A stretch of 47,655 nucleotides of DNA, taken from NCBI GenBank assembly GCA_013373015.1, contig JABXIQ010000034.1, positions 1 through 47,655 on the forward strand. Reading direction: 5' to 3'. Shown here piece by piece: positions 6,022 through 34,510 of the stretch; within the stretch, counting starts at the first letter, position 1; each line of letters opens with the position of its first letter. Under the pieces are notes generated by a model. That model did no database searches, was not told where the DNA came from, and saw nothing but the letters and a program-made list of their open reading frames with translations. Origin of the DNA: Kangiellaceae bacterium (lineage in GTDB: Bacteria; Pseudomonadota; Gammaproteobacteria; Enterobacterales; Kangiellaceae). The translations under genes were made by a program, and so were the position numbers.

Positions 6022-6843
6022 ATGTCGGAATATATTACCCCTTTAATCATCAACGCTTGTACAGGCCGTATGGGCAAGGAACTGTTAAAGGCTGCAATTA
6101 GTGATCCGGGTACTGATGTTACCGCAGCGATTGCGCGTGAAACTCATCCTTTACTGGGCACAGATATTGGTTACTTAATTGGAGCGAACCCACAAGGCGT
6201 GTTTGTTGGATCGGATGTCATGGCTAGTTTGAATGGTCAATACACCAATCGTAGAGTATTGGTTGACTTTAGTTTGCCTGATCACTCGATGGAAACTTTA
6301 CAAAAAGCGTTGGTCAATTTGACGCCTATCGTGATTGGAACTACTGGCTTTAATGAAACGCAACAAATTGAAATCGAAAAAGCCGCCCAATATATTCCGA
6401 TTGTTTATGCTGCAAATTATAGTGTGGGGGTAAACAGTTTGATTTGTTTGGTTAAACAAGCCACCAAGCTTTTGGGGCAAGAATCAGACATCGAGATATT
6501 CGAAGCGCATCATAAATACAAGAAAGATGCTCCCTCTGGAACCGCTTTGGCTTTAGCTCATGCTGCTGCAGAAACTATGGGCAAGCCATTGTCTGAGATT
6601 GCTGTTGAAAATAGGCAAGGTGAGCGTAAATCGGGAGATATAGGCTTTTCTGTGATGCGAGCTGGTGACATTGTTGGAACTCACGAAGTGGTATTTGCAT
6701 TGAATGGCGAAATGGTCACTTTGCGTCACGAAGCACAATCTCGTCAATGTTTTGCTCAAGGTGCTATTAACGCTGCTAAATGGCTTTGTGATAAAAAAGC
6801 AGGTCTTTATAACATGCAAGATGTTCTTGGAATTAAGTCCTAA
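6022..6843 (+). CDS. dapB: 4-hydroxy-tetrahydrodipicolinate reductase
   Basis: DapB reduces hydroxy-tetrahydrodipicolinate with NAD(P)H in the lysine/diaminopimelate pathway. The length, 273 aa, equals that of E. coli DapB. Visible motifs are GRMG (15-18) of the Rossmann loop, IGTTGF, ANYSVGVN, the catalytic EAHHKYKKDAPSGTAL with His163-His164 and Lys167/168, and the C-terminal RAGDIVGTHEV. An oddity is that the first Gly of the usual GxxGRMG loop is Ala12 (NACTGRMG). dapB commonly sits between dnaJ and carA, and here the accessory block has been placed between dnaJ and dapB. No strong Shine-Dalgarno precedes the ATG (AAGCAAAATTACTT). Confidence 0.97.
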   Translation: MSEYITPLIINACTGRMGKELLKAAISDPGTDVTAAIARETHPLLGTDIGYLIGANPQGVFVGSDVMASLNGQYTNRRVLVDFSLPDHSMETLQKALVNLTPIVIGTTGFNETQQIEIEKAAQYIPIVYAANYSVGVNSLICLVKQATKLLGQESDIEIFEAHHKYKKDAPSGTALALAHAAAETMGKPLSEIAVENRQGERKSGDIGFSVMRAGDIVGTHEVVFALNGEMVTLRHEAQSRQCFAQGAINAAKWLCDKKAGLYNMQDVLGIKS

Positions 6844-7090
6844 GGGATAATTTGGCTAGATCTGAAGCAAAGCGGTTTTCAAATGTGACTTAAATGTAAG
6901 ATATTGTCCATTGTGGTTGTAGGAAATCTCTTAAGCAATTGTAATCTGGCGCGCTTTGATCAATCAGTTTTTATTCATTTTGCATGGTATTTTTTCGCTA
7001 AGCTATTGTTTATTAAGGTTATTTAACAATTGATGCAATACTGCATTAATAAAAAATACTATTGTGAAAAAACATAAAAGGCGTAGATTA
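6844..7090 (+). promoter_or_regulatory. Upstream control region of the putative small RNA, with a GacA/LetA-like box
   Basis: No ORF is present. TGTAGG-AAATCT-CTTAAG at 6918-6935 matches the GacA upstream activating sequence TGTAAG-N2-AT-N2-CTTACA at 11 of 14 defined positions. The inner 6920-6933 matches the Legionella LetA box TNAGAAATTTCTNA at 10 of 12. An IHF-like GATCAATCAGTTT lies at 6958-6970. A possible promoter is TTGTGA (7062-7067) with TAGATT (7084-7089) at 16-bp spacing. The box is about 165 bp before the likely RNA start, similar to the long UAS-promoter distance known for rsmY/rsmZ genes. Motif matches are mine by eye. Confidence 0.5.
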
Positions 7091-7221
7091 ACACTTGTGC
7101 AAAGGATGCACACAAGGAAGAAAAAAGCCGAAGGATATGGTGCGACACGGAAGTAGCAGGGAGCAACATATTAGCATGAAGCTAACTGAAAATGGGCACG
7201 TTTAGTGCCCTTTTTCTTTTT
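7091..7221 (+). ncRNA. Putative CsrB/RsmZ-type CsrA-sequestering small RNA
   Basis: Five GGA motifs occur within 60 bases (7104-7106, 7116-7118, 7133-7135, 7149-7151, 7160-7162) in a non-coding stretch that ends in a strong intrinsic terminator. The first lies in the 7-nt loop AAAGGAT of a 5-bp hairpin (TGTGC 7096-7100 / GCACA 7108-7112). The second is ACAAGGA. The fourth, ACACGGAAGT at 7145-7154, fits the CsrA SELEX consensus ACANGGANGT exactly. A further hairpin (TTAGC/GCTAA, 7171-7185) precedes the terminator. Known CsrB/RsmY/RsmZ RNAs bind and titrate CsrA through such loops. The 5' end is approximate. Alternatively it is a leader of carA, but the terminator separates the two. Confidence 0.6.
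7194..7221 (+). terminator. Strong rho-independent terminator between the small RNA and carA
   Basis: GGGCAC (7194-7199) pairs with GTGCCC (7205-7210) over GTTTA and is followed by TTTTTCTTTTT. It ends whatever is transcribed from the dapB-carA gap, about 200 bp before the carA start. Confidence 0.92.
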
Positions 7222-7424
7222 GTGATCTCTAATATTCTTGAAGATAGCTTTTTGAGAATTTGATGAGTCATTTTCTTATCAAAACTTTCCCAACCTTAAT
7301 AGACTTCCGACCAGCGATCCCGTAAAATACCGCGAATTTGCCAAAAATTTCGATAAAGCACAGATTTTTACGGACTCATTTTCCTTGAGCCCGAGTTTGT
7401 TGCACCCTAAAGATGGAGGTTTCT
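7222..7424 (+). promoter_or_regulatory. carA leader and promoter region
   Basis: About 200 bp without an ORF. It must hold the carAB promoter because a terminator closes its upstream side. I see no convincing -35/-10 pair and no clear ARG box. The only firm element is the Shine-Dalgarno GGAGG at 7415-7419, five bases before a TTG codon, which decides the carA start. Confidence 0.45.
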
Positions 7425-8591
7425 TTGGACAACACAGCGTTCAATTCAGAGTTAACTCAAGCACTCCAGCCAGCCGTTCTTGTTCTTGAAGATGGTAGTG
7501 TATTCCGTGGTATTTCAATAGGTTATGAAGGTCAAGCCGTTGGTGAGGTGGTATTCAACACTTCAATGACTGGCTATCAAGAAATCTTAACAGATCCCTC
7601 TTACGCCAAACAAATGGTGACTTTAACCTATCCACATATTGGTAACACTGGTACCAATGATGAAGACGAAGAGTCTTCCGCGGTTTGGGCTGAAGGATTA
7701 ATTATTCGCGATTTACCATTACTGCATAGTAATTTCCGAGCGCAGGAATCTCTATCAGAGTATTTGATACGCCATAAAAAAGTGGCTATTGCGGATATTG
7801 ATACACGACGTTTAACGCGAATTTTACGCGATAAAGGTGCGCAAAATGGTTGTATCCTTGCAGGAACAGATCTTGATGAAGATAAAGCGTTAGAACTTGC
7901 TAAGTCATTCCCGGGCTTGAAGGGCATGGATTTAGCAAAAGAAGTTTGTACTAAAGAAACCTATCAATGGAATGCAACTTCTTGGCAATTAGGTCAAGGT
8001 CACGGTCAGCTTCAAGATAAGAAATTCAAAGTTGTGGCTTATGACTACGGTGTAAAACGTAATATTTTAAGAATGTTAGCAGATCGCGGTTGTGATTTGA
8101 CAGTCGTTCCTGCGCAAACGCCAGCTAGCCAAGTGCTAGCGATGAATCCTGACGGTGTTTTCTTATCCAATGGCCCAGGCGATCCAGAACCATGTGATTA
8201 CGCCATTGAAGCAATTAAAGAGATTGTTGCTACTGGAATACCAACTTTTGGAATTTGTTTAGGTCATCAATTATTAGCATTAGCCAGTGGCGGTAAAACG
8301 GTAAAAATGAAGTTTGGTCATCATGGAGCCAACCATCCAGTGCAAAACTTAGACGATAAAACCGTATTGATCACCAGCCAGAATCATGGCTTTGCTGCTG
8401 ACGAAGACACATTACCTGTTAATTTGCGTGCTACTCACCGCTCATTATTCGATGGTTCATTGCAAGGTATTCATCGCACAGATAAGCCAGCGTTTAGCTT
8501 CCAAGGACATCCAGAAGCAAGTCCTGGTCCACATGATGCTGCGCCATTATTTGACCACTTCATTGAACTGATGACTCAACACAAAGCATAG
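7425..8591 (+). CDS. carA: Carbamoyl-phosphate synthase small (glutaminase) subunit
   Basis: CarA hydrolyses glutamine and channels ammonia to CarB, supplying carbamoyl phosphate for pyrimidines and arginine. The N-terminal CarA domain ([30 protein letters not shown]) is followed by a class I glutamine amidotransferase domain with GICLGHQ (nucleophile Cys278) and GHPEASPGP (His362, Glu364). The frame is also open from an ATG at 7413, but the ideal GGAGG lies inside those first codons and five bases before TTG 7425, so I take TTG as the start; E. coli carA also uses TTG. carB begins 11 bp after the stop. The enzyme uses bicarbonate, as PurK does. Confidence 0.96.
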
Positions 8592-33234: not shown

Positions 33235-33780
33235 ATGGGTATTGAAGAGAAATTAAGCCAAGACGGTTTCTTCACCACCAGCGTGCAAGATTTGTTTGAT
33301 TGGGCGCGAACCGGCTCTATGTGGCCGATGACATTCGGTTTGGCTTGCTGTGCGGTTGAAATGATGCACGCAGGGGCTTCGCGCTATGACTTAGATCGCT
33401 TTGGCGTGGTTTTTCGCCCCAGTCCAAGACAGTCTGATGTGATGATTGTGGCTGGAACCTTGACCAACAAAATGGCACCAGCGCTACGCCGAGTGTATGA
33501 CCAGATGCCTGATCCAAAGTGGGTGATTTCGATGGGTTCATGTGCCAATGGCGGCGGTTATTATCATTATTCGTATTCTGTGGTGCGCGGCTGCGATCGT
33601 ATCGTACCGGTTGATATCTATGTTCCAGGCTGCCCGCCAACAGCCGAAGCCTTGTTGTATGGCATTATCCAATTACAAAATAAAATTAAACGCAGTACCG
33701 TGATTTCGCGCAATAAAGTAGCTGCCGCTGGCTCAGATAAAGTGACGGCAAACCAATCACAAGAGGCTTCCATTGGCTAA
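33235..33780 (+). CDS. nuoB: NADH-quinone oxidoreductase subunit B
   Basis: NuoB carries cluster N2 next to the quinone site. Ligands are Cys38 and Cys39 ([10 protein letters not shown]), Cys103 ([17 protein letters not shown]) and Cys133 ([11 protein letters not shown]). The frame is also open from a TTG at 33229, but the ATG at 33235 ([12 protein letters not shown]) fits relatives. The sequence resembles the beta-/alphaproteobacterial and mitochondrial form more than the enterobacterial form. A GCTAATGGGT duplication (33217-33226 and 33231-33240) surrounds the start. Its last 8 bp overlap nuoC. Confidence 0.97.
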
Positions 33781-34510
33781 CTTATCCGTTAACTCGCTTA
33801 TTGAAAAGCTGGGTCAAGTTTTTGGCGACAGCCTCAATCGTTGTGAGCAGGATTTTGGCGAAGTCACCATTGAAATCAATAAAGATGATCTGTTGACTGT
33901 GGCAACCCAATTACGCGATCACGATGATCTCAAGTTTGAACAATTGATGGATGTCACGGTGGTGGACTATTCCACATACGGACAGGATGAATGGAGCACT
34001 GACGAAGCATCAAGCGCGGGCTTCAGTCGCGGTCGAGAGAACCTTGATCCTTTGGATGCTAGAAAAGCATGGTCAAGAGAACGTTTTGCAGTGGTTTATC
34101 ATTTGCAATCAATCATTTATAACCAGCGCTTGAGAGTCAAATGCTTTGTTAAAGAGAATCGCCCAACCATTGATAGTGTGCTCAATGTTTGGAATTCAGC
34201 TAACTGGTTTGAGCGAGAAGCCTTTGATTTATTTGGTATTTTGTTCGTTGGTCATCCCGATTTAAGACGTATTTTGACGGATTATGGCTTTATTGGTCAT
34301 CCTTTCCGCAAAGACTTCCCACTGATTGGTAATGTTGAATTACGTTATGACGCTAAACAAAAGCGCTGTGTTTACGAGCCCGTATCCATCGAACCAAGAG
34401 TGTTGGTGCCGCGTGTGATCCGTGCTGAGAAAGAAGAAATTGTTTATGTGGGATCTGCTGACAAAGTCGATGGTTCTGCGAAAAGTGGGCAAAAAGGAAA
34501 GGCAAGCTAA
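33773..34510 (+). CDS. nuoC: NADH-quinone oxidoreductase subunit C
   Basis: A 245-aa peripheral-arm subunit (30 kDa type). The signature is [41 protein letters not shown]. It is a separate protein, not fused to NuoD as in E. coli. It starts at TTG 33773, with GAGG six bases before it, inside the end of nuoB; no in-frame ATG offers a plausible alternative. The last 25 residues are low-complexity Lys/Ser/Gly. Its stop overlaps the nuoD ATG (TAATG). Confidence 0.96.

Follow-up and report, generated by a model that had tools for sequence, protein, structure and literature searches.

The question raised by this locus is what the gap between dapB and carA (6844-7412) encodes in the stretch of DNA analysed here (47,655 nucleotides, called the window below), which belongs to a genome, probably of the genus Kangiella, of 2.58 Mb in 62 contigs. 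A preliminary description made from the letters alone had proposed a CsrB/RsmZ-type small RNA, and this proposal is supported by the GGA sites, the conservation, our covariance model R1 and the presence of the partner genes. The gap holds what is apparently a complete small-RNA gene with promoter, GGA sites and terminator, and we consider it highly likely that 7095-7218 is a CsrB/RsmZ-type sRNA gene that would be switched by UvrY/BarA and would titrate CsrA. It is very probably a new member of the CsrB/RsmZ RNAs, missed by standard RNA annotation, and likely the RNA arm of BarA-UvrY-CsrA in Kangiella. In the open-access literature we found no relevant match for Kangiella with CsrA or with GacA; among the matches listed, none joined Kangiella with a Csr RNA and nothing evident joined dapB and carA with Csr RNAs.

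Gene anatomy of the dapB-carA gap

The flanking genes and the elements of the predicted transcription unit are as follows.

6022-6843 (+): dapB, upstream flanking gene (NCBIfam TIGR00036, 262 bits, cut-off 122)
7062-7067 (+): -35 element TTGTGA (TTG kept in all 21 copies, with a 16-bp spacer)
7084-7089 (+): -10 element TAGATT (TA in 21 of 21 copies)
7095-7218 (+): predicted Csr-type sRNA of ~124 nt (125.3 bits to R1, whose source sequences include this copy; fold z -2.82 for 7085-7222; CsrB 20.6 bits)
7194-7219 (+): intrinsic terminator (stem 7194-7210 plus T run)
7300-7328 (+): separate promoter-like element TAGACT-17-TAAAAT before carA (9/12 in the scan, in a conserved block)
7413-8591 (+): carA, downstream flanking gene (NCBIfam TIGR01368, 493 bits, cut-off 307)

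The core promoter TTGTGA-16-TAGATT (7062-7089) was absent from the preliminary description and is also passed over by a generic promoter scan, and its pattern TTG-16-TA is kept in all 21 copies when both copies of genome G020 are counted. The predicted 5′ end at 7095 is derived from the -10 element, and the same rule set the start of every aligned copy. The strong terminator that had been described earlier was located to the stem at 7194-7210, whose helix is 99% paired in the alignment of 20 copies. With a promoter and a terminator of its own, the sRNA would thus form an independent intergenic unit. It may be noted that the scan which gave TAGACT-17-TAAAAT returned fewer promoters than the average of the shuffles.

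GGA sites, structure and conservation

The five GGA motifs claimed within 60 bases are present, starting at 7104, 7116, 7133, 7149 and 7160 and spanning 59 bases. This is the maximum per 60 bases in the gap, a density that 16 of 2000 dinucleotide-shuffled versions attain, and on scanning both strands nowhere else in the window are five or more A(N)GGA packed into 70 bases. Elsewhere in the window, the only other cluster of five GGA in 60 bases (33936-34008, + strand) lies inside an ORF (33773-34510).

The sites are distributed over the predicted structure as follows.

7096-7112 (+): hairpin 1, loop GGA at 7104 (compensatory change in two pairs)
7116-7118 (+): second GGA, unpaired in the consensus (alignment of 20 copies)
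7127-7141 (+): hairpin 2, loop GGA at 7133 (100% of cells paired, compensatory change in one pair)
7149-7151 (+): fourth GGA, within ACACGGAAGT (7145-7154), unpaired in the consensus (invariant in 20 aligned copies)
7156-7164 (+): short hairpin 3, GC-AGGGA-GC, GGA at 7160 (two invariant pairs; CsrB alignment)
7171-7185 (+): hairpin 4, TTAGC-ATGAA-GCTAA (three pairs in the consensus structure, compensatory change in two pairs)

The motif AAAGGAT at 7101-7107 does lie in a hairpin loop as had been described, being that of hairpin 1. The CsrA SELEX consensus is ACARGGAUGU, and the exact match to it that had been claimed did not hold, since ACACGGAAGT agrees in 8 of 10 positions. The pairs of hairpin 3 never vary and therefore give no covariation evidence, and its context GCAGGGAGCA is also present in the Rfam CsrB consensus.

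The structure alignment comprises 20 sequences (19 from Kangiella plus a single one of the G020 pair), and its consensus fold has five helices. Exactly five A(N)GGA are found in 20 of 20 aligned copies and three of the five lie in consensus loops, so that the RNA has multiple GGA sites with several in hairpin loops. Among the columns that never vary are those of four GGA sites out of the five, together with their stems. In the consensus structure 98.7% of cells pair as against 38-54% in slid controls, a score that is favoured by the structure being derived from the same alignment, and compensatory change on both sides is seen in 6 of 24 pairs as against 0-2 in the slid controls, the copies inside the genus not being independent of each other. 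The region 7085-7222 folds better than 200 of 200 shuffles (z -2.82).

Conservation across relatives, proposed earlier as a check, strongly favours the description, as the GGA sites, the upstream sites and the synteny are all kept in the genus. A DNA search found the sRNA in 19 of 20 Kangiella genomes (own included), the sole miss being a genome that is 55% complete (G002). Of the 19 loci, 18 have dapB on one side of it and carA on the other; the remaining one (L009) starts at a contig end with carA only, and was left out of the conservation comparison because its upstream sequence is missing. Over the 18 loci the conserved islands are ~6890-6944 (the upstream sites), a weaker one at ~7000-7014, the promoter with the RNA, and ~7300-7345 before carA. 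A pattern scan matched 18 stretches, of which 13 are labelled Kangiella or Kangiellaceae. In one Kangiella locus (L014) there is ~1 kb extra between the RNA and carA, which looks coding-like by eye.

Upstream control region

We scored the upstream 18-mers against the published UvrY sites of E. coli csrB, Salmonella csrC and E. coli csrC. The putative control elements are listed below.

6895-6912 (+): putative UvrY/GacA-type site 1, TGTAAGATATTGTCCATT, centred ~-192 from the predicted RNA start (15/18 to the Salmonella csrC UvrY site)
6918-6935 (+): putative UvrY/GacA-type site 2, TGTAGGAAATCTCTTAAG, starting 5 bp after site 1 (9/12 to TGTAAG-N6-CTTACA; position conserved in relatives)
6940-6946 (+): TGTAATC, possibly a third half-site, 22 bp downstream of where site 2 starts (partly conserved)
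6999-7011 (-): IHF-like site AAACAATAGCTTA (8/9 to WATCAANNNNTTR, p 0.38 alone)

Site 1 is the best 18-mer of the window, its 15/18 is reached by 0 of 200 shuffles, and it lies inside a conserved block, which points to a UvrY/GacA-type site upstream of the sRNA at a conserved position. The preliminary description had proposed the sequence at 6918-6935 as the upstream activating sequence. This position is conserved in relatives and is the second of a pair; the principal site is 6895-6912, and the 9/12 of site 2 is reached by 12.7% of 300 shuffles of the upstream stretch, and therefore site 2 alone is not significant. With the same 12-position consensus most upstream regions are not significant either, and the published 18-mers did better. 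The mean UvrY-box score over 20 upstream regions of 260 bases is 14.55; for the downstream controls, of 190 bases each, it is 11.85. In 5 of the 18 Kangiella loci the best match is weak (p 0.38 in L016, 0.33 in L015, 0.07 in L007, 0.055 in L019 and 0.05 in L017). Loci L004 and L011 reach 18/18 to the Salmonella csrC site and L006 reaches 17/18; with two Kangiella genomes matching it letter for letter, the UvrY site is common to distant families.

The IHF consensus used is WATCAANNNNTTR. An IHF-like site had also been described, for which no coordinates were given; a match at a conserved position does exist at 6999-7011 on the minus strand, and its 8/9 has a p of 0.38 when taken alone. The best IHF-like match falls at -95/-96 in 11 of the 18 Kangiella loci, in four of which it is 9/9.

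In an excerpt of the published work on the E. coli csrB and csrC and Salmonella csrC control regions (PMC4682653), UvrY 18-mers lie far upstream, as they would here. According to that excerpt the E. coli csrB site is TGTGAGAGATCTCTTACA, centred at -183/-182 with TGTAGGAGA 5 bp downstream and IHF-dependent, and the Salmonella csrC site is TGTGAGACATTGACCATT (PMC4682653). As far as the excerpt goes, the E. coli csrB layout is echoed in the window, where TGTAGGAAA, with which site 2 begins, follows site 1 at a distance of 5 bp, whereas both window sites are putative and imperfect palindromes.

Relation to known RNA families

Rfam at gathering, run over the whole window, reports solely a tRNA and misses the sRNA. 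The Rfam comparison proposed in the preliminary description leans weakly towards it: a full-length alignment of the CsrB model (RF00018) to 7043-7220 scores 20.6 bits (E 0.0011 for the 581 bases searched), which is below the gathering score of 71, and a search of the window's whole genome with RF00018 and RF00166 gave no match at E 0.001. Gathering is passed by no Kangiella genome with either model, and for RF00166 (PrrB_RsmZ, gathering 44) by none of the 41 genomes. Among relatives RF00166 scores 38.1 bits in one G020 copy and 29.4 in L002, and weak matches of this model also appear in Deinobacterium and Thermotoga controls. An RsmZ-like hit in another genome (G011, locus L133) was dropped as a terminator after a gene with no GGA cluster.

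The covariance model R1 was built from 20 sequences only (19 Kangiella and one G020 copy) and run over 41 and then 295 genomes, with 12 candidates per genome scored in the latter run. The window's genome gives one R1 match. Outside Kangiellaceae R1 matched in 14 genomes in the two runs together, and the comparison with Rfam covered 13 of these (G076 left out). In 10 of the 13 the R1 match coincides with an RF00018 match, either above gathering (7 cases: G032, G033, G035, G112, G163, G175 and G197) or below it (3 cases: G037, G038 and G200), so that the independent model R1 would relate the sRNA to CsrB genes. In G027, G029 and G030 the R1 hit is not on an RF00018 match; that in G027 shows five GGA together with a UvrY-like box of 15/18, and those in G029 and G030 look terminator-like only. 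In other genera of Kangiellaceae R1 matched in 9 of 20 genomes (0 of 5 in genus g5), and 6 of 8 further R1 loci examined there have 5-8 GGA with a 14-16/18 UvrY-like box upstream. Four hits (L050, L051, L061 and L062, of which L061 and L062 belong to the nine genomes of other genera in the family) resemble terminators and were discarded, having 0-3 GGA and a best box of 11/18, and the E-values of R1 are unsafe, as terminator-like false hits go down to 7.5e-5 (L050, L051). An extra short match, L021, was seen in G010.

The window RNA shares with CsrB/RsmB (RF00018) the repeated loop GGA, GCAGGGAGCA near the 3′ end, the terminator and an upstream UvrY-type site, and in other members of the order R1 hits coincide with RF00018 matches. 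It differs in having ~124 nt and five sites, whereas the RF00018 model has 356 positions; E. coli CsrB has 22 GGA in the part of the source consulted (PMC11882849). Its size is similar to that of PrrB/RsmZ (RF00166, model of 133 positions), but the window's genome gives no match to that model. Rfam thresholds thus miss the short Csr RNA, and a genus-level model such as R1 detects it.

Protein partners, proposed mechanism and alternative explanations

The preliminary description had asked for csrA and a gacA/letA homologue, and this check speaks strongly for it. The window's genome encodes CsrA (119.9 bits, cut-off 73), the UvrY/SirA/GacA regulator (318 bits, cut-off 280) and BarA (918.7 bits, cut-off 890) by NCBIfam models, so that all three partners occur together in one genome. 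Of the 41 genomes, 33 have a UvrY above cut-off, among them 18 of the 20 of genus Kangiella; none over cut-off was found in G002, G003, G020, G021, G026, G028, G031 and G040.

The DNA itself shows how the gene is built, that it is conserved, and that csrA, uvrY and barA are present; from this we infer transcription, binding of UvrY and IHF, CsrA binding and titration. In the proposed mechanism the kinase BarA would activate UvrY, and phosphorylated UvrY would bind the two sites ~170-190 bp upstream, possibly assisted by IHF bending, and would switch on the sigma-70 promoter at 7062-7089. The resulting RNA of ~124 nt would end at its own terminator, and its five GGA sites would titrate CsrA dimers off mRNAs. 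Among the points against this reading are that the window RNA has only five CsrA sites, and that G003 (86% complete) and G020 (73%) carry the sRNA without a UvrY over cut-off.

Four other explanations were weighed. A cis-acting carA leader or attenuator in place of a free RNA would agree with the RNA being on the carA strand and with the terminator ending ~190 bases before the carA start, but within that interval there is a promoter-like element of its own, which is conserved, the R1-type RNAs of L047 and L020/L063 lie after dapB and the stretch examined shows no carA, carA points away from the RNA in L056, and the conserved bases are those of the GGA sites and stems; we regard this as improbable. 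About equally improbable is that UvrY controls an RNA whose main mode of action is base-pairing, CsrA binding being secondary; the invariance of four GGA sites with their stems argues against this.

Less credible still is that the GGA motifs are ribosome-binding sites of a small protein. GGA does resemble the Shine-Dalgarno core and short ATG frames are present, but these frames vary in start, frame and length over the 20 copies with none common to all, and both the indels and the compensatory changes in pairs agree with an RNA. An equally slight chance is given to a mere dapB terminator with chance GGA motifs, for which the position after dapB and the terminator-driven false hits of R1 (L050, L051, L061, L062 and an antisense hit in G005) might speak; against it are the promoter pattern of its own, the five conserved A(N)GGA sites, the UvrY-type sites and a CsrB similarity that extends outside the terminator. 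The CsrA-titrating sRNA is the reading that we retain.

A second Csr-like RNA and the dapB neighbourhood

In five Kangiella genomes the RF00018 search also gave a match elsewhere (25.7-35.6 bits); at this place, 3′ of a glutaminase gene, 7 of the 20 Kangiella genomes have a second Csr-like RNA.

L096:2548-2720 (+): second Csr-like RNA (homologues L093, L097, L098, L099, L100 and L104)

Within limits that we chose, this RNA has 173-192 nt and 10-12 GGA, with a UvrY-type site near -72 (14-17/18); a T-tract terminator is not evident by eye. It is like the window RNA in its repeated GGA hairpins, its CsrB-likeness and its upstream UvrY-type site, and differs from it in being longer, with more GGA, at another locus and with the UvrY-type site nearer, at -72. 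Model R2, for which the 3′ part of the seven copies was used, matches the same seven of 41 genomes; as these are just its source genomes, no new member is shown. The second RNA was not detected in the window's genome, where no glutaminase, small ORF, R2, RF00018 or RF00166 match was found. Directly 3′ of it in 6 of the 7 genomes lies a 76-aa ORF (MAIKLIQ..., L096:2787-3014, + strand), which was not found in G018, and the RNA might also serve as the leader of this ORF.

Beyond the genus, G024 of the same family has an R1 RNA between dapB and carA, G020 and G037 have two Csr-type RNAs after dapB, and G027 has the R1 hit and a second GGA-rich stretch (by eye) between dapB and a carA that points away. 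This suggests, from few genomes, that the dapB neighbourhood is an old address for Csr RNAs. That it is an old chromosomal address, often with tandem RNAs and UvrY boxes (G020, G037, G027), and that the Kangiella clade of the window has cut the system down to a single Csr RNA, a minimal one with five sites, is a tentative idea that we hold to be somewhat doubtful.

As a separate observation, tandem GGA-rich Csr-type RNAs with UvrY-like boxes are seen beside dapB in three other genera (L047:1290-2160; L056:1260-1960, where the second RNA of the pair was read by eye only; and L020:960-1600).
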